64,000 nt of DNA from Candidatus Nitrosopelagicus sp. (GTDB lineage: Archaea > Thermoproteota > Nitrososphaeria > Nitrososphaerales > Nitrosopumilaceae): assembly GCA_028345195.1 (NCBI GenBank), contig JAOMCX010000002.1, forward strand, positions 62,001-126,000, read 5' to 3'. The notes beneath the pieces were generated by a model that worked only from the letters and a program-made list of their open reading frames with translations, was not told the origin of the DNA and searched no databases. Each line of letters opens with the position of its first letter. The stretch's first letter is position 1. The position numbers and the translations under genes were made by a program. Below are positions 2,604 through 22,364 of this stretch, in pieces.

Positions 2604-3116
2604 TTATTCAATTTCAGCAATAATATCATTTTTGTTTACAGAATTACCTTCTTTAATTTTGATACCTTTGACTGTACCATCTTTTTGTGCTTTGACAGCA
2701 ACTTGCATCTTCATAGATTCTAAGGTACAAACTGTGTCACCTTTCTTGACTTCAGTACCTTCACCTGCATTTATTGATACAACTTTACCAGGGATTTGAC
2801 TACGCAAAGTAGATTGACCAGCACCAGAATCAGATCCACCGGAGTTTTTGTAAACAATATCATCAAGATGTGAATTCATGTTTACAGACATTGATGAACC
2901 GTCAACAATGAAATTCATCTCAGAAGTTTGACTATCAACATATCTAACTGAATGAAATTCATTATTCAAAACAAATTCCATAACATTTGAATCCATGTTA
3001 AGAATTTTTACAACATATTCATTATCTTTGATCTTAATTTTGTATTCATTCTGTGATAATTTCTCTAAGATTTCACCATCTACAATATCATCAGTATCTT
3101 GAACTTTGTATTTCAT
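2604..3116 (-). CDS. accB: Biotin carboxyl carrier subunit of acetyl-CoA/propionyl-CoA carboxylase
   Basis: A 170-residue biotin carrier. The C-terminal ~75 residues form the biotinyl/lipoyl domain, with QIPGKVVSINAGEGTEVKKG and the biotinylation loop ESMKMQ (modified Lys about 136). The loop has Ser where most carriers have Ala (AMKM). Residues 1-70 form a beta-rich linker domain like that seen in acyl-CoA carboxylase carriers. It is the last gene of a three-gene operon, two bases after the biotin carboxylase stop. In ammonia-oxidising archaea this enzyme carboxylates both acetyl-CoA and propionyl-CoA in the HP/HB cycle. Confidence 0.93.
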   Translation of the reverse strand: MKYKVQDTDDIVDGEILEKLSQNEYKIKIKDNEYVVKILNMDSNVMEFVLNNEFHSVRYVDSQTSEMNFIVDGSSMSVNMNSHLDDIVYKNSGGSDSGAGQSTLRSQIPGKVVSINAGEGTEVKKGDTVCTLESMKMQVAVKAQKDGTVKGIKIKEGNSVNKNDIIAEIE

Positions 3117-3118
3117 TT

Positions 3119-4612
3119 TTACACACTATCCATCTTATTTTTCCAGTTTTGATTTCTGGAATTTTGTGATTGTACTTTACTTTTATAAAATTCAGAATGC
3201 ATTATTGCAGAAGCAATAGCAGGAATTTGTTTGTCTTTTCTATCTTGAATTAGATCTTTTTCTAATTTTTCAATCATTTCAAATCTTTTCAAAAAGTCAG
3301 TTGATAAATTTCCAGTCTTGTATTCTTCAGAATTTAGAATGGTTTTGTATAAAGGAATTGAAGTTTCTACACCCTGAATATCAAAGTCATCTAATGCACT
3401 TAGCATTCTTAATCTAGATTCATCAAATGTTTTTCCCCAAGTACAGAGTTTTGCCATCAAAGAATCATAAAATGGAGATACAGTGCATCCAGGATATAGA
3501 TATGTGTCACATCTAACGCTCGGACCTGAAGGAATTGTAACGTAAGGGACAGGACCAGTTGATGGTGCAAAGTCTAAGAAAGTATCTTCAGCGTTGATTC
3601 TACATTCAATTGCATAACCATTCATTTTCAAATCAGATTGTTTGAATGGTAATGTTTCTCCATTTGCAATATCTAGTTGAAGTTTAACAAAATCTAATCC
3701 AGATACCATTTCAGAGATTGGGTGTTCTACTTGTAATCTTGCATTGATTTCAATGAAATAAAATTCACCAGAATCTGCTCTAAGAAATTCTGCAGTGCCC
3801 AAGTTAGTATAATCAACGGCTTTTGCTGCTTTAACAACTAATTCACCAATTTCTTCTCTTTTTGCATCATCGACTACAGGAGATGGAGTTTGTTCAATTA
3901 ATTTTTGATTTCGTCTCTGAATGGAACATTCTCTCTCAAAGAGATGTACAGTATTACCATGTTTGTCTCTACACATTTGATATTCAATGTGTCGCGTTTT
4001 CTCTAGGAATTTTTCAACAATAATTGCAGATTTTCCAACAGCAGCTATGGATTCAGATGTAACAGTTTCAAAACCTTCCTGTAATTCTTTATCATTAGTA
4101 ACTAATCTAATTCCACGACCTCCACCACCATAAACGGATTTCAAAAGTACAGGATAACCAATATCATTTGCAATTTTTTCTGCTTCATCTGCATCTTTTA
4201 CTAAACCTGGACTTCCAGGTACGGTTGGGACATTAGCATCAAGCATTGCTGCTTTACAACGCATCTTATCACCACAAAGATTCATTGAATCAGCAGAAGG
4301 ACCGATAAAGTTAATTTTATTTTTTTCACATAATCGTGCAAAGTCATCATTTTCTGAAAGAAAACCATAACCAGGATGTACAGCATCGGTACCAGACGAC
4401 AACATGACGTCAAGAATTTTTTCTTGATTAAGATAGCTCTTTGCAGGAGCAGCCTCACCAATGTAATATGACTCGTCAGCAGTTTTTACATGAAGGGAGT
4501 TAACATCTTCATCAGAATAAACTGCCACAGTCTTTATTCCTAAAGCCTTACAAGTTTTCATTACACGAAGGGCAATTTCTCCTCTGTTGGCTATCAGTAC
4601 TTTTTCAATCAT
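3119..4612 (-). CDS. accC: Biotin carboxylase subunit of acetyl-CoA/propionyl-CoA carboxylase
   Basis: A 497-residue ATP-grasp enzyme that carboxylates biotin with bicarbonate and ATP. Visible features are the N-terminal KVLIANRGEIALRV, the Gly-rich ATP loop KSVYGGGGRGIRLV, the catalytic segment EINARLQVEHPISEMVSG and the C-terminal biotin carboxylase domain with YDSLMAKL. Length is typical for a stand-alone subunit. The ORF begins six bases after the stop of the carboxyltransferase gene and is followed by the carrier gene, so the complex is encoded as one transcript. Confidence 0.96.
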   Translation of the reverse strand: MIEKVLIANRGEIALRVMKTCKALGIKTVAVYSDEDVNSLHVKTADESYYIGEAAPAKSYLNQEKILDVMLSSGTDAVHPGYGFLSENDDFARLCEKNKINFIGPSADSMNLCGDKMRCKAAMLDANVPTVPGSPGLVKDADEAEKIANDIGYPVLLKSVYGGGGRGIRLVTNDKELQEGFETVTSESIAAVGKSAIIVEKFLEKTRHIEYQMCRDKHGNTVHLFERECSIQRRNQKLIEQTPSPVVDDAKREEIGELVVKAAKAVDYTNLGTAEFLRADSGEFYFIEINARLQVEHPISEMVSGLDFVKLQLDIANGETLPFKQSDLKMNGYAIECRINAEDTFLDFAPSTGPVPYVTIPSGPSVRCDTYLYPGCTVSPFYDSLMAKLCTWGKTFDESRLRMLSALDDFDIQGVETSIPLYKTILNSEEYKTGNLSTDFLKRFEMIEKLEKDLIQDRKDKQIPAIASAIMHSEFYKSKVQSQNSRNQNWKNKMDSV

Positions 4613-4618
4613 ATCTAA

Positions 4619-6166
4619 TCACAGGTTGATATTTCCATGTTTTCTAGGAAGTTGTTTTTCACGTTTATTGCTGAGCATTTCGAGTGCTTTGATAAGCATT
4701 GGTCGAGTCTCTGCCGGATCAATAACGGTATCTACGGTTCCATTTGATGCTGCAACGTAAGGATTTGCAAATTTCTCGGTAAATTCATCAACTAATTTCT
4801 TTTTTAATTCATCAGGATTATCAGAACTTGCCAATTCTTTTCTATTCATAATTTTTACAGCGCCCTCAGATCCAAGTACAGCAATTTGTGCAGTTGGCCA
4901 TGCATAATTCACATCAGTTCCTAGATTTTTGCTTGACATTGCAATGTATGCACCACCGTATGCTTTTCCAATGACAACTGTAATTTTTGGAACAGTAGCT
5001 TCACAGTAAGAGTATAGTAATTTACTTCCATGACGAATTATTCCATTGTGTTCTTGATTTGAACCCGGCATGTATCCAGGAGTGTCAACTAAAGTAATTA
5101 GTGGAATACCATAACAATCACAGAAACGAATGAAACGTGATGCTTTGTTTGATGAATCAATATCTAATGCACCTGCCAAAAACATTGGTTGATTTGCTAC
5201 AATTCCAACAGTTTTACCATTCATTCTACCAAAACCAACAATAACATTTTGTGCAAATAGTTCATGGATTTCAAAGAATTTGTTATCATCTAAGATTGAA
5301 AGAATAATTTCTTTCATATCATAAGGTTGTAAAGCATCATCAGGTAGAATATTTATTAAATTATTATCTAATCTGTTAGGATCATCAGATGTTGTAACAG
5401 AAGGTGGAGTTTCAGCATTATTTTGTGGAATGTAGGAAAGTAATGTTTTGATATAGTCCATACATTCGTATTCATTTTTAGCTACAAAGTGAGCAACGCC
5501 ACTCTTTGTTCCATGAGTCATTGCACCACCTAATTCATCAAAGGATATTTCTTCTCCAAGAACTGTTTTTACAACATCAGGACCAGTTACAAACATAGTT
5601 CCAGCTTTTTCAACCATTATAACAAAATCAGTCATTGCAGGAGAGTAAACAGCACCACCAGCAGAAGGACCAATACTTGCAGTAATTTGTGGAACTACAC
5701 CAGATGCTAATTGGTTATGATAGAAAATATCTGCAAAACCATCGAGACTTAAGATTCCCTCTTGAATTCTTGCACCACCAGAATCAGCAATTCCAACTAT
5801 TGGACAACCATTTCTAGTTGCATGATCCATTAATTTAGTAATTTTTTTAGCTCCCATCTGACTTAAGGTTCCACCTAAAACAGTGAAATCATATGCAAAA
5901 ACATAGACTTGACGGCCATTGATTTTTCCATAACCACCAACTACACCATCAGTGAAAAATTTCTTTTTCTGCATATCGTAATCAAAATAATGATGTGTAG
6001 TCATTGCATCAAGTTCAACGAAAGTTCCATCATCACAGAGTAGATCAATACGTTCTCTAGCAGTCAGTTTACCCTTTTCATGTTGGGCCTTAATTCTATC
6101 CTGACCACCACCTTGAAGTGAGGTTTTTTTGTTATTCAGATATTCATTTAGTTTATCAGAATGCAT
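4619..6166 (-). CDS. pccB: Carboxyltransferase subunit of acetyl-CoA/propionyl-CoA carboxylase
   Basis: A 515-residue carboxyltransferase that moves CO2 from biotin to acetyl-CoA or propionyl-CoA. The two crotonase-like halves are seen: GKLTARERIDLLCDDGTF at the N-terminus, the oxyanion-hole glycines in GPSAGGAVYSPAM, and in the second half VDTPGYMPGSNQE and GKAYGGAYIAMSSK. It is first in the operon pccB-accC-accB. In organisms with HP/HB fixation the same enzyme makes malonyl-CoA and methylmalonyl-CoA, and these archaea lack fatty acids, which supports a role in carbon fixation. Substrate range is family knowledge, not readable from the sequence. Confidence 0.96.
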   Translation of the reverse strand: MHSDKLNEYLNNKKTSLQGGGQDRIKAQHEKGKLTARERIDLLCDDGTFVELDAMTTHHYFDYDMQKKKFFTDGVVGGYGKINGRQVYVFAYDFTVLGGTLSQMGAKKITKLMDHATRNGCPIVGIADSGGARIQEGILSLDGFADIFYHNQLASGVVPQITASIGPSAGGAVYSPAMTDFVIMVEKAGTMFVTGPDVVKTVLGEEISFDELGGAMTHGTKSGVAHFVAKNEYECMDYIKTLLSYIPQNNAETPPSVTTSDDPNRLDNNLINILPDDALQPYDMKEIILSILDDNKFFEIHELFAQNVIVGFGRMNGKTVGIVANQPMFLAGALDIDSSNKASRFIRFCDCYGIPLITLVDTPGYMPGSNQEHNGIIRHGSKLLYSYCEATVPKITVVIGKAYGGAYIAMSSKNLGTDVNYAWPTAQIAVLGSEGAVKIMNRKELASSDNPDELKKKLVDEFTEKFANPYVAASNGTVDTVIDPAETRPMLIKALEMLSNKREKQLPRKHGNINL

Positions 6167-6226
6167 GTCCGCGATTTCTCGCCCCAGATATCATATATTA
6201 ATTTAAGTTAAACAAAACAAAAATTG

Positions 6227-7706: not shown

Positions 7707-8825
7707 TCACTTAGGAAGGTTTTGAGTCAAATCTGACCAGATATTCGCTTCTTGGAGTTTTTTATACCAAAATAGATTATAGTGTTCGACAGTTAGGAAC
7801 AAAAATTCTAAGAATTTTCGATGTGAGAAACTATCTGGGAGTTTTTCAAGATCGGCTCTAGCATCATTAAGATAAGATTCACTGTGATTCATGGTTTCTT
7901 CAAATCCACTCTTTACATCATTCATTTTTAGAGAATAGAACAGTGGCCATGATGGTATTTTTGCAGCTTTATCTCTAATGCTATCTTCAATTTCATTTCC
8001 ACATCCTACAGATTCTGCGGCTTTTGCCATTCCAGTGTAAAAGATATCAGCTAACGGTGCACGATTTAATGCCATGTTTCGACCAGCTGTACCCATAACA
8101 GAACGATATTTCTTGTAACTCTCAACTAATTCTTCTTCGGTAATTGATGTAGGTTTATCTTTTAATTTTGTATCAAGGTATTGTCCAATTCTTGCCTGCT
8201 TGAATCCTTCTTCAAATTCTTTTAGCACATCCTCGCCACCTTTTGAAATTTTTTCTCTTGCGAGTTTTAGAATATATGGATTCATTAGTTTGTAATCATC
8301 AAGATATTCTAGATCCTCATCTTTGTCTACAATTCTATCCATTGGTTCACTAAGATCTATTGCAATTATGTGACCGTCTACAATATCCTCGCGCATGTTA
8401 GTACTTGGATCATCTTTAAAGTAATCAGTTGACGCATCAAAAAGACCATTGAATACAGGAAATGTCATTTTTACAAAATTTGAGTTTAGAATTCTAAGAA
8501 CTCGGTCGTGTAGAGTATCAAAATCAGATAGTTTCGATTTGATAGGGTCTATTTCAGAAGCATTAAGAATAATTTCCGTTGAACCAACTTCTTCTGCAAA
8601 TTTTTGTTGTGTAGTGTTAGGAGATTCATCAGAGTTTATTTGATCAAATAAATTTTTTGCAAATCTTTTAGCAAATTCTGGAAATGTATTTTCTGCTTCT
8701 TCTTTATAGTGATTAAATTGCTTGAAACCTTTTGATTTGAATAAACCTTGTTTTATGATTTGTTTTCCAGGTTTAGTTCCCATTAATGCACTTTTACTGA
8801 AAATTGATTCGTCTTTTCCACTCAC
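7707..8825 (-). CDS. Uncharacterised protein upstream of rfcL
   Basis: A 372-residue, mainly alpha-helical, soluble protein that I do not recognise. There is no signal peptide, membrane segment or metal motif. Notable segments are FPEFAKRFAKNLFDQIN near residue 50 and a C-terminal FSHRKFLEFLFLTVEHYNLFW. It opens with GTG. Its stop overlaps a possible rfcL GTG start (GTGA), so it is likely co-translated with the clamp loader large subunit. A function in replication or repair is suggested only by this coupling. Confidence 0.75.
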   Translation of the reverse strand: MSGKDESIFSKSALMGTKPGKQIIKQGLFKSKGFKQFNHYKEEAENTFPEFAKRFAKNLFDQINSDESPNTTQQKFAEEVGSTEIILNASEIDPIKSKLSDFDTLHDRVLRILNSNFVKMTFPVFNGLFDASTDYFKDDPSTNMREDIVDGHIIAIDLSEPMDRIVDKDEDLEYLDDYKLMNPYILKLAREKISKGGEDVLKEFEEGFKQARIGQYLDTKLKDKPTSITEEELVESYKKYRSVMGTAGRNMALNRAPLADIFYTGMAKAAESVGCGNEIEDSIRDKAAKIPSWPLFYSLKMNDVKSGFEETMNHSESYLNDARADLEKLPDSFSHRKFLEFLFLTVEHYNLFWYKKLQEANIWSDLTQNLPK

Positions 8826-10581: not shown

Positions 10582-11418
10582 TTATCCGTATGATTCGTAT
10601 TTGACTTCAAAAGTTCCATCTTCATGTGGATTATCTCTATTGACAAATCCTCTATCATCAACATAATCCATTACTCCATCAATGGTTCCTTGATAACCAC
10701 AAATGTAAATTCTAGTATTCTCAGGAGTGACTTTTTCTCCAACTAATTCATCTAATGGAGAAACACCTTGTGCATTTGCTTTGAAAAATGATTCAACTCT
10801 TCCTACTTGACCATTCCATGATCTATTGTATTGTTCTTTTGGTCTACTAATTGCAGCTCTATAAAGAAAGTTCCATTCATCAGTTCCTCTTTCTTTACTT
10901 TCATTTTCAAAGTCAGTGAGAAGACGTTTGTAACTTAATTCATCGACATAACTTGCACCATGTAAAACTACAAGTTGTCTTTTATCATTAGTATCATGAA
11001 AGTGATGTGCAAATGCAATGAATGGTGCAAGACCAGTTCCGCCACCTACACAGACTACTCTTCTATTATCTGGTTCTCCATTTCGATATTTGTCTTCAAT
11101 TATCAAGTCGTCGCCAGTTGGATCACCAAGTAATACTTCATCACCAACACTAAGATAGAATAATTCAGTGGTTACACGACCAGGTAATGGTTTTCTTACC
11201 CATCTAATTACAAATTCAAAATAGTCTCTATTTTCAGCATGCGATGCAATCGAATATGCACGTTTCACAATTTTATTTTCTGCAGCTACCGGTAAACCAA
11301 TAGTTAGAAATTGTCCAGTTTTGTACTTTGGCATTCCAGTTATTGGAACTAGACGAATTACAACTAGATCTTCTTTTAATAATTCAGTATAGATGATCTT
11401 TGCTTTTGTATCTGCCAT
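10582..11418 (-). CDS. Ferredoxin-NADP reductase-like flavoprotein (copy 1)
   Basis: A 278-residue FAD/NAD(P)-binding oxidoreductase. The FAD motif is RAYSIASH (RxYS), the nucleotide-binding loop is GGGTGLAPF, and the C-terminus has ICGYQGT and ends in an aromatic-Gly pair (ESYG). The expected role is electron transfer between ferredoxin or another carrier and NAD(P)H. A second copy at 21522-22364 is clearly homologous over its whole length. Neither has an iron-sulfur domain. The electron partner is unknown; a separate ferredoxin is at 42335. Confidence 0.85.
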   Translation of the reverse strand: MADTKAKIIYTELLKEDLVVIRLVPITGMPKYKTGQFLTIGLPVAAENKIVKRAYSIASHAENRDYFEFVIRWVRKPLPGRVTTELFYLSVGDEVLLGDPTGDDLIIEDKYRNGEPDNRRVVCVGGGTGLAPFIAFAHHFHDTNDKRQLVVLHGASYVDELSYKRLLTDFENESKERGTDEWNFLYRAAISRPKEQYNRSWNGQVGRVESFFKANAQGVSPLDELVGEKVTPENTRIYICGYQGTIDGVMDYVDDRGFVNRDNPHEDGTFEVKYESYG

Positions 11419-11688: not shown

Positions 11689-12759
11689 TTAAACTCTTTT
11701 CATTGAAGCAGATAAGATTGGTAATTCCTTATCAATGATTTTCTCAACAGCAGGTACGATTCCAGCTCTTAATTTTGCATTTTCTTCATAAATTTCTGCA
11801 ACCTGATCTCTAAATAATAATTTGATTCTAGGCAACTCCATGATAGTTTCTTCTACAGCTCTTGGCTCAGATATATCTAAAATTAGAGTTCCTTTTTTCT
11901 TTTCTTTCATAACAAGTTTGATCCGTTCAAGATCAATCAAAAAGTAATCAGCAGTAGTAGCAACTATGATAATATCAAATTTATCAAATCCTGAAAGTGC
12001 ATCAACAAACTCCATTGGAGTACCACACAAAAGTTGTGAGAAATTGGTAGCACGTTGCATATCTTTGCTAGTAACTGTAAATGAAAGTTCTTTTTGTCCT
12101 AGTGTTTTTGCGACCATAGCTGCAGATTCACCGGTTCCAATGAGTAAGACCTTCTTTTTTGCATCCAACCCAACTTTTTCTTCTATCAAGTTTAATGCAA
12201 CATCTCCTAACGACAAAACTTCTTTACTAATTTCAGTTGAATCTCGGATTGAATTAGCAAGTCGTATTACACTATCAAATAATTTATTAAGAATTTTTCC
12301 AGAGGCACCAGATTTTTTTGCAATTTCTAGTGACTTTGTAATTTCATCATAAACTTCTTGTTTTCCAACAACTACAGAATCCAATCCACAAGCTAATCGT
12401 AAGAGGTGAAGGTAGACATCATCATCTTTGAAAACTTCTAAGGTTTGATCAAAATGATCAATATCAATTTGTTCTATGCTAGAATTTTTTTCCCAAGTTT
12501 CTTTCATTTGATTAATTACCAAACCTTTTCCTTCAGGTCTTCTTGCATCAGTAGAATCATCTGTTTCAAGATTACTAACAGTAAAAATTTCTACTCTACT
12601 AGAAGTTTGAATTATAATACATTCTTCAACACCAGGAATTTTTTTGAAGGCCTCTGTTGCAGCATTTACATCTTTGAATGCAAATCTAGCAAGAGAATGA
12701 AGAGGAACATTTTTGAAAGTTACTCTTGCATTTAAAACATCAAATTTTAGTTCGCTCAC
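11689..12759 (-). CDS. hemA: Glutamyl-tRNA reductase (HemA) with Ser at the catalytic Cys position
   Basis: A 356-residue enzyme of the C5 tetrapyrrole pathway that reduces glutamyl-tRNA to glutamate-1-semialdehyde. The middle third has the NADPH-binding fold (VLLIGTGESAAMVAKTL) and the C-terminal helices follow. The N-terminal catalytic domain has IQTSSRVEIF where the family signature is xTCNRxE: Ser53 replaces the nucleophilic Cys; the nearest Cys is Cys47. Segments LRLACGLDSVVVGKQEV and SILDISEP-like ILDISEP are conserved. The start is GTG. The missing Cys may be real biology or a lineage variant. It starts 20 bases after the stop of the upstream gene at 12780, so the two may be co-transcribed. 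Confidence 0.85.
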   Translation of the reverse strand: MSELKFDVLNARVTFKNVPLHSLARFAFKDVNAATEAFKKIPGVEECIIIQTSSRVEIFTVSNLETDDSTDARRPEGKGLVINQMKETWEKNSSIEQIDIDHFDQTLEVFKDDDVYLHLLRLACGLDSVVVGKQEVYDEITKSLEIAKKSGASGKILNKLFDSVIRLANSIRDSTEISKEVLSLGDVALNLIEEKVGLDAKKKVLLIGTGESAAMVAKTLGQKELSFTVTSKDMQRATNFSQLLCGTPMEFVDALSGFDKFDIIIVATTADYFLIDLERIKLVMKEKKKGTLILDISEPRAVEETIMELPRIKLLFRDQVAEIYEENAKLRAGIVPAVEKIIDKELPILSASMKRV

Positions 12760-12779: not shown

Positions 12780-13442
12780 TTAATCTTTTCTTCCACCTTT
12801 TGCAGTTCTGAAAACATTCATTCCAAGATAATAATTTTGATGTAATGAATCCAAATATGCAAGATTTTGTTCAACTTGCGCAATATCATCAGCAAGTGCT
12901 TCAGGATCATTTCTAAGACGATCGAGTTTTGCTTGTAATTCATCACCAAGAACAGTTATTCCAGTTTCATAATTTGAAGTTCCCCCAAAACGTTCGTCTA
13001 GAATATTTTGAGGATTGTATTCAGGAGTAGTATCTTCATAATTGAGAGCTTTACGTGTAATGTCATCTTTTTCATCTTCAGATAAAATAGGTTTTGGAAA
13101 TCTATCTACTTTATCTAAGAAAAATTCAGGTTCGCCCATCTCTCTTCTAAATATAATTTCATTTTTTCTTTTGTTAGTTACATCAGGTGCTTTTGGAGCA
13201 TCAGCTTTGATTTCTTCAGCAATTGCTTTGAACTCATCTTCTGATGCTTTTGATGCAGCTTGTTTCAATTCTTTGGCTTTTGCAATTGCAGCTTCTGCTG
13301 CAGCTTCTGCTTCTTCTGCTGCCTTCATTGCTTTTTCTGCATCTTTAGATGCCTTGATAGATTTTTGACCATCCTGTTTTTTTGATTCTACATCTGTTTT
13401 TGGAGCATCCTTTACTTCAGAATCTTTTTTGTCGTCAGACAT
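12780..13442 (-). CDS. Ala/Lys-rich coiled-coil protein, unknown
   Basis: A 220-residue protein. Residues ~5-75 are dominated by Lys, Ala, Asp and Glu (EKAMKAAEEAEAAAEAAI), giving a charged helix or coiled coil. The C-terminal half is more complex and carries REMGEPEFFLDKVDRFPKP and a last helical segment ending in GRKD. There is no signal peptide. The longest frame opens with TTG, but the next codon is ATG and is used here. Function unknown. It precedes hemA by 20 bases on the same strand. Confidence 0.65.
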   Translation of the reverse strand: MSDDKKDSEVKDAPKTDVESKKQDGQKSIKASKDAEKAMKAAEEAEAAAEAAIAKAKELKQAASKASEDEFKAIAEEIKADAPKAPDVTNKRKNEIIFRREMGEPEFFLDKVDRFPKPILSEDEKDDITRKALNYEDTTPEYNPQNILDERFGGTSNYETGITVLGDELQAKLDRLRNDPEALADDIAQVEQNLAYLDSLHQNYYLGMNVFRTAKGGRKD

Positions 13443-13537
13443 CAATTTTTCACTGAAATTGCCCGGATTTTAAGATTATTGTGACAAACAAGGTAGAACG
13501 TCATGCGATCAGATAATGTTAATTTGAAAAATAAAAG

Positions 13538-21500: not shown

Positions 21501-21521
21501 ATAAATTCGTATTTTTAAGAA

Positions 21522-22364
21522 ATGGTTCAAGATAATAAAGCAAAATTAACTTATACACAATTACTAAAAGAAGACCTTGGCATATTTCGTCTTGTTCCAG
21601 AAGATGGAGTTATTCCAGATTTCAAAGCAGGTCAATTTTTAACACTTGGAATGCCGGTACCTGGAGAAGATAATAAAATTGTTCGACGTGCATATTCAAT
21701 TGCATCACATCCAGAAAATAAAAAATTTTTTGAGTTTGTAATTAGATGGGTAAGAAAACCATTTCCAGGAAGATTGACAACTGAATTATTTAATGCAAAA
21801 GAAGGTGCAGATGTAAGTTGGGTTAAACCATTAGGTCACCTAACAATTAATGATGAATTACCAAACGGTGATCCGGATACTAGAAGAATTGTTTGTATCG
21901 GAGGAGGAACAGGCTTAGCACCATTTGTGAGTTTTGCTCAGCATCTTCATGACATAGGAGATAAAAGAGAAATTGTTGTTTTGCATGGAGCCAGTTATGT
22001 GGACGAATTAAGTTATAAACAATTACTTACAGATTTAGAAAATGAAAGTTTGGATAGAGGTACAGACAAATGGAATTTCAAATATAGAGCAGCAATTAGT
22101 AGACCACAAGAATGGTTTAATCGTGCATGGACGGGTCAAACAGGAAGAGTAGAACAATTCCTGAGAACAAAATCTGGAGAAAAATCACCATTAGAAGAAT
22201 TAGTTGGAGAAAAAATTACAAAAGATAACACCATGTTTTACATCTGTGGATGGCAAGGAACAATTGATGGTACATTAGATTATCTTGGAAATAATGAGTT
22301 CGTAACAGAGAGAAATAAACGAGAAGATGGTAGTTATGAAGTCAAATTCGAATCATATGGATAA
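21522..22364 (+). CDS. Ferredoxin-NADP reductase-like flavoprotein (copy 2)
   Basis: A 280-residue paralogue of the protein at 10582-11418; both share RAYSIASH, FVIRWVRKP, GGGTGLAPF, LHGASYVDELSYK and an ICGxQGTIDG segment, and end in ESYG. It has the FAD (RxYS) and NADP (GGGTGLAP) motifs. The two copies differ most in residues 95-115 after the FAD domain, where this copy has VKPLGHLTINDELPNGD. Having two paralogues suggests different electron partners; this is not shown by the sequence. Confidence 0.85.
   Translation: MVQDNKAKLTYTQLLKEDLGIFRLVPEDGVIPDFKAGQFLTLGMPVPGEDNKIVRRAYSIASHPENKKFFEFVIRWVRKPFPGRLTTELFNAKEGADVSWVKPLGHLTINDELPNGDPDTRRIVCIGGGTGLAPFVSFAQHLHDIGDKREIVVLHGASYVDELSYKQLLTDLENESLDRGTDKWNFKYRAAISRPQEWFNRAWTGQTGRVEQFLRTKSGEKSPLEELVGEKITKDNTMFYICGWQGTIDGTLDYLGNNEFVTERNKREDGSYEVKFESYG

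Follow-up and report, generated by a model that had tools for sequence, protein, structure and literature searches.

A HemA paralog without the catalytic cysteine

The window, by which we mean the whole 64,000-nucleotide stretch of DNA analyzed here (G000:C12:62001-126000, from a draft genome that is 85.5% complete), carries a gene for a paralog of glutamyl-tRNA reductase (GluTR, the hemA product), termed HemA2, together with genes for a coiled-coil protein (CC), a ferredoxin/flavodoxin-NADP(H) reductase-like protein (FNR2) and a Pfam-confirmed acyl-CoA carboxylase operon at 2604-6166 (Table 1). The HemA2 reading frame, whose translation includes ...EECIIIQTSSRVEIF..., reads C47-IIIQ-T52-S53-S54-R55-V56-E57 around the family signature. 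Ser53 and Cys47 are thus present as the preliminary description had reported, and the same TSSRVE recurs in independent assemblies of the genus.

Table 1. Features of the HemA2 locus, in window coordinates
Feature	Position	Strand	Remarks
Biotin carboxyl carrier protein	2604..3116	-	Pfam
Biotin carboxylase subunit	3119..4612	-	Pfam
Carboxyltransferase subunit of acetyl/propionyl-CoA carboxylase	4619..6166	-	Only PF01039 gene found in the draft genome
Slot between the carboxyltransferase and small Zn-protein genes	6167..6226	.	Holds short CC in other ammonia-oxidizing archaea; empty here
FNR2, ferredoxin/flavodoxin-NADP(H) reductase-like paralog	10582..11418	-	Co-occurs with HemA2
HemA2, HemA paralog with Ser53 for the catalytic Cys	11689..12759	-	356 aa, GTG start, no dimerization domain
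Degenerate GluTR signature TSSRVE (canonical TCNRVE)	12589..12606	-	Codons 52-57 from the GTG start
Long-form CC, with an Ala/Glu-rich coiled coil, a IFRREMGEPEFF motif and a C-terminal helical hairpin that ends in MNVFRTAKGGR	12780..13445	-	Upstream of HemA2, 20-nt gap

A Pfam scan of the window protein returned GlutR_N (100 bits) and a Rossmann domain (66 bits) and no GlutR dimerization domain (PF00745). Against the NCBIfam hemA equivalog TIGR01035, HemA2 scored 185.3 bits, below the cut-off of 209.55. The AlphaFold model (pLDDT 87.6) found its best PDB matches exclusively among GluTR structures, and the long C-terminal helix typical of GluTR is present. The protein had been thought intact apart from its signature, a view contradicted by the absent dimerization domain, the low equivalog score and changes at residues that are invariant in canonical HemA.

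Sequence divergence of the HemA2 family

GlutR_N genes were surveyed in 101 genomes (that of the window and 100 relatives), and 40 stretches with a second copy were read. The second gene recurred solely in the same family, Nitrosopumilaceae, and in a quick maximum-likelihood tree HemA2 formed one clade (SH-aLRT 100) nested among the canonical HemA proteins of that family. Alignment columns were numbered after a Methanopyrus kandleri (Mk) row carrying the catalytic residue as Cys48, a row that served for numbering only. The catalytic column is Cys in 31 of 31 canonical proteins and never Cys in the 39 readable HemA2 rows, which hold Ser (20), Ala (15) or, once each, Thr, Gln, Pro and Gly. While independent single-cell and metagenome assemblies of the window's genus share an identical TSSRVE, the catalytic column is occupied in other genera by Ala, Thr, Gln, Pro or Gly, and its residue requires eight changes across the tree. 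Since different genera and independent assemblies agree, the Ser53 state is no artifact, and neither a sequencing error nor a lone mutation accounts for it.

GluTR catalysis starts with attack of the Cys on Glu-tRNA and ends when NADPH donates a hydride to the resulting thioester (PMC6399207; PMC7242693); with its catalytic Cys lost, HemA2 cannot perform the first step in this Cys-dependent manner. HemA2 might nonetheless be a working glutamyl-tRNA reductase that uses Ser53, through an oxyester, or Cys47, both of which the preliminary description had raised; in favor of this, the protein retains the Arg and Glu of the signature as well as the general fold. However, the drift of the Ser column to Ala, Pro, Gly, Gln and Thr contradicts a catalytic serine. 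Cys47, the proposed substitute, occurs in both classes alike (26 of 31 canonical and 37 of 39 HemA2 proteins) and must therefore predate the loss of the catalytic Cys. A canonical HemA is present besides, and the dimerization domain is usually missing, so that we give this reading practically no credence. A Cys at Mk90 was likewise rejected as a replacement nucleophile, its column holding Cys (26), Ser (8), Thr (5), Val (1) and Ala (1). Taken together, HemA2 is almost certainly not a GluTR.

Beyond the catalytic column, the following residue is Asn in all canonical rows and Ser (34), Phe (4) or Thr (1) in HemA2. Counting this position, residues that are invariant in canonical HemA changed as Asn49 to Ser, Glu99 to Lys, Gly134 to Ala, Ser152 to Asp, Pro238 to Asp and Asn267 to Glu or Asp (Mk numbering), the paralog-specific Asp residues being found in 40 of 40 rows at Mk238 and in 36 of 41 at Mk152. 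On the other hand, Gln46, Arg50 and Glu52 (Mk numbering) are kept in all readable HemA2 rows, Mk Ser94 in 39 of 41 and Mk His84 in 31 of 41. The Rossmann glycine motif is retained. Mk Arg199 in the nucleotide-binding domain, which we take to face the 2'-phosphate of NADPH, is not conserved (Lys 18, Met 12, Arg 7 and Gln 3 of 40), making NADPH binding by HemA2 uncertain. The family has also acquired invariant residues of its own (window numbering), namely D71 and R73 in a HemA2-specific D-x-R insert after the signature, H102, D104 and Q105 in a new H-x-D-Q motif at 102-105, and D271; a further new conserved Asp is found at position 186.

Most HemA2 proteins are without the domain that builds the V-shaped GluTR dimer; the fold for nucleotide binding remains, as does part of the pocket for glutamate. 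Nine HemA2 rows retain the dimerization domain and the others are without it; in some other genera it is found with modest scores (L033, L047). Its state changes up to six times on the tree, one of these changes possibly reflecting a contig end, and the domain has been lost several times. Purifying selection on HemA2 is strong, with pairwise dN/dS of 0.04-0.09 for pairs from the same genus and values reaching 0.24 for more distant pairs, whose synonymous sites approach saturation; these values (0.04-0.24) rule out a pseudogene.

Canonical HemA in the same and related genomes

Apart from HemA2, the window's genome has one other GlutR_N gene (match at G000:C4:19238-19672, 140 bits), on a different contig, and it encodes a canonical HemA of 421 aa with the signature TCNRVE. 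The search for a second hemA that the preliminary description had recommended was therefore successful, and by the refuting criterion set there, its heading, which makes the protein a Ser-bearing glutamyl-tRNA reductase, does not hold as a statement of function; its other suggestion, that the protein does something else, gains support. Judging by its sequence, the upstream neighbor of the canonical gene looks like a precorrin-2 dehydrogenase/siroheme-synthase protein. Canonical HemA also accompanies HemA2 in 16 of 18 near-complete genomes.

In Nitrosopumilus maritimus, the hemA of the tetrapyrrole cluster is NMAR_0510 (PMC3004389), the only copy named in that paper, whose list, by its own footnote, leaves out copies located elsewhere. 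Within the open-licence literature, we found no report of a second thaumarchaeal HemA and no paper on Nmar_0261-0266, our guess at the N. maritimus locus tags.

As HemA2 and HemA share fold and descent, HemA2 could regulate the canonical enzyme or tetrapyrrole synthesis, for example by binding Glu-tRNA or HemL as a decoy or by entering a heterodimer, and inactive paralogs frequently control the active enzyme. Against such a role, most HemA2 proteins do not have the domain through which GluTR dimerizes, and the gene lies, in the window's genome, on another contig than canonical hemA, its ties being to CC, FNR2 and the carboxylase instead. This reading therefore appears quite improbable.

Long and short forms of the CC protein

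Wherever the contig reaches, the CC gene directly precedes HemA2 on the same strand, with close or overlapping frames. The C-terminal domain of CC has a homolog in a short protein whose gene, in other ammonia-oxidizing archaea, immediately precedes the operon for acetyl/propionyl-CoA carboxylase. A CC profile search recovered such short relatives, of about 70-198 aa and confined to the C-terminal part, in four families within the order; we take these to be the ammonia-oxidizing ones, and among 250 genomes of the phylum, the profile had no match outside them. Of 20 loci examined, 18 have the short-form gene immediately upstream of those for carboxyltransferase, biotin carboxylase and carrier protein, the other two loci being on short contigs. 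The short proteins of L153-L172 (e.g. L162:5536-5748 and L161:5972-6205) end in (M/L)N(V/Y)FRxAxGGR or a near variant and represent a candidate carboxylase accessory subunit.

The two forms differ in a GEPE motif, which is found in all 38 distinct HemA2-paired CC proteins and in none of the 20 unpaired ones. G047 has both forms, and its short copy is without GEPE. Nearly every genome with HemA2 is missing the short form. Two genomes that carry long CC and HemA2 retain what seem to be its remnants, a degraded copy with three stops in about 62 codons (G037:C14:15150-15335) and split fragments (G050:C18:16539-16813), which, as far as these sequences go, is consistent with replacement of the short form.

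CC had no Pfam match and no match to a PDB chain, carboxylase epsilon subunits included, and its predicted model was poor (pLDDT 63, pTM 0.29). By analogy, short CC may resemble the actinobacterial AccE/PccE epsilon subunits in being small, probably helical and encoded beside a carboxyltransferase gene, although no Pfam or PDB similarity between the two was detectable.

The conserved residues of HemA2 and the history of CC also bear on a reading of HemA2 as a dehydrogenase acting on a different small molecule, with a new Asp/His/Gln active site and with CC as a partner that has given up its carboxylase role. The newly conserved D71, R73, H102, D104, Q105 and the Asp residues at 186 and 271, along with the intact glycine motif, favor such an enzyme. 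Yet they suggest no substrate, and CC retains the C-terminal domain of a carboxylase-operon protein whose short form is lost where the long one is present; we thus regard this reading as unlikely, if the least so of the alternatives to the one that we prefer.

Co-inheritance of HemA2, long CC and FNR2

An FNR gene is found near HemA2 almost always, on either side and on either strand. In an FNR tree, from which the extreme outlier L180 was disregarded as a probably mispicked ORF, the HemA2-adjacent copies grouped together and apart from most other FNR copies, with two adjacent copies (that of L062 and the second one in L052) falling in the other group. The window holds a second FNR gene, of the FNR1 type, at 21519-22361 on the forward strand, about 9 kb from HemA2 and about 65% identical to FNR2.

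Near-complete genomes of the same family without HemA2 have at most one FNR, and most of those with HemA2 have two or three, the exceptions with a single FNR being G019, G026, G028 and the fragmented G049. A prediction set beforehand, that long CC would be accompanied by HemA2 and an extra FNR gene and short CC alone by neither, agreed with all 26 new near-complete genomes: a second HemA and at least two FNR genes were present in 20 of 20 genomes with long CC, and each of the 6 genomes with only the short form had one HemA and one FNR. The sample is dominated by one genus, and since the 26 genomes are related, they do not amount to 26 independent events. Four of the 26 belong to genus g18 and have neither HemA2 nor long CC nor an extra FNR, and their sister G047 has all three; this contrast within one genus, together with the position of the module elsewhere in the G047 chromosome, suggests that its genes can be acquired or lost together. 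HemA2, long CC and FNR2 thus very probably form a co-functional three-gene module.

Linkage to the acyl-CoA carboxylase

In 29 of the 33 genomes compared, all of them with a single carboxyltransferase gene, HemA2 lies less than 10 kb from that gene, the four exceptions being G019 and G028 (about 14 kb each), G026 (55 kb) and G047 (864 kb); the module as a whole is usually 2-8 kb from the carboxylase operon. At L033, L043 and L047, HemA2 is positioned between the CC and carboxylase genes, in the order RFC-Zn protein-CC-HemA2-(FNR)-carboxyltransferase, where neighbors were assigned by size and order and the carboxyltransferase positions were confirmed. We consider a physical or functional tie between the module and the carboxylase somewhat better than an even prospect. 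Alternatively, the linkage may be a relic of the place where CC originated, in line with the 864 kb that separate the two in G047.

The window also encodes, at 7707-8825 on the reverse strand, a 372-aa protein with no Pfam match; most of the ammonia-oxidizing archaea examined conserve it beside the carboxylase operon and the gene for the RFC large subunit.

A possible accessory role at the carboxylase

We propose that hemA was duplicated inside Nitrosopumilaceae and that the copy that became HemA2 has given up glutamate-1-semialdehyde synthesis. CC may have derived from the small carboxylase-operon protein; its C-terminal hairpin (ENYxxGMNVFRTAKGGR) would still dock on the carboxylase, and its GEPE/coiled-coil extension would bind HemA2. 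With bound NAD(P)H, HemA2 could then serve as a non-thioester accessory subunit that tunes carboxylase activity to the supply of reductant, with FNR2 as its putative partner on the reductant side. The chances seem about equal for and against the full proposal, namely a neofunctionalized, tRNA-independent HemA paralog that is tethered to the carboxylase by CC and is probably a nucleotide-binding regulator, the regulatory step being what we infer. On that narrower point, that HemA2 regulates rather than catalyzes, our support is tentative and falls short of even.

A bolder proposal is that HemA2, CC and FNR2 dock on the carboxylase as an assembly of a kind not described before, acting as a reductase or as a redox sensor; at its boldest, HemA2 is a Cys-free reductase of malonyl-CoA or another acyl-CoA, derived from GluTR and fed directly by the carboxylase. 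HemA2 would then be channeled with the carboxylase, for example converting malonyl-CoA to malonic semialdehyde, with NADPH supplied by FNR2 and the retained Arg as carboxylate anchor. A CoA thioester needs no enzyme Cys, so a Cys-free HemA2 could reduce acyl-CoA directly with NADPH. GluTR chemistry ends with just such a hydride transfer to a thioester, the signature Arg of HemA2 is invariant, and the gene lies near those of the carboxylase and FNR2. Moreover, N. maritimus genes for the reductases of malonyl-CoA and succinyl-CoA still appeared as unassigned in 2018 (PMC6038301).

By analogy, HemA2 would share the conversion of a thioester to an aldehyde with malonyl-CoA/succinyl-CoA reductases. 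The known archaeal and bacterial enzymes of this kind belong to protein families other than that of HemA2. What speaks against a reductase is that many ammonia oxidizers expected to run the same cycle have no HemA2 in their near-complete genomes. These HemA2-less genomes showed no compensating gene and no complementary pattern of PF02774 or of PF00171 aldehyde dehydrogenases, such as an essential malonyl-CoA reductase would predict: PF02774 numbers two almost everywhere, and some of the genomes are without any PF00171. In addition, conservation of the His84 equivalent is incomplete (31 of 41 HemA2 proteins). Both the docked reductase or redox-sensing assembly and the channeled acyl-CoA reductase strike us as improbable. 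The module is dispensable across ammonia-oxidizing archaea and the steps of the carbon cycle are expected not to be, which favors an accessory or regulatory role over an essential reductase. As a separate observation, G025, a single-contig 1.2-Mb genome of the window's genus, and several relatives have no PF00171 above threshold, from which it follows that their carbon-cycle acyl-CoA reductases would come from other families.

The preferred reading, a regulator tethered to the carboxylase, has a conceptual counterpart in bacteria, where GlnB acts on acetyl/propionyl-CoA carboxylase according to a passage of PMC8187598. HemA2 and CC may thus be likened to PII-type regulators of bacterial acetyl-CoA carboxylase in the concept of an accessory protein that sets carboxylase activity, although their fold is unrelated. 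Set beside the CO2-fixing enzyme of marine ammonia-oxidizing archaea, the strictly co-inherited trio built around the Cys-less HemA2 suggests that carbon fixation in these organisms has a further level of control or catalysis that had gone unrecognized.

In comparison with GluTR itself (M. kandleri, 1GPJ; Arabidopsis GluTR1, 4N7R), HemA2 shares descent, the catalytic and Rossmann folds, the glycine motif, the signature Arg and Glu and the C-terminal helix, but differs in the missing catalytic Cys and signature Asn, the usual absence of the dimerization domain, its newly conserved residues and its gene neighborhood. Automatic pipelines likely call such genes glutamyl-tRNA reductase; the annotation is corrected here to a HemA paralog that is not an enzyme of the heme pathway. 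Chain A of 1GPJ, as deposited, itself reads TSNR, with Ser at the catalytic position, so that a structure-based look-up could wrongly suggest a natural Ser variant.
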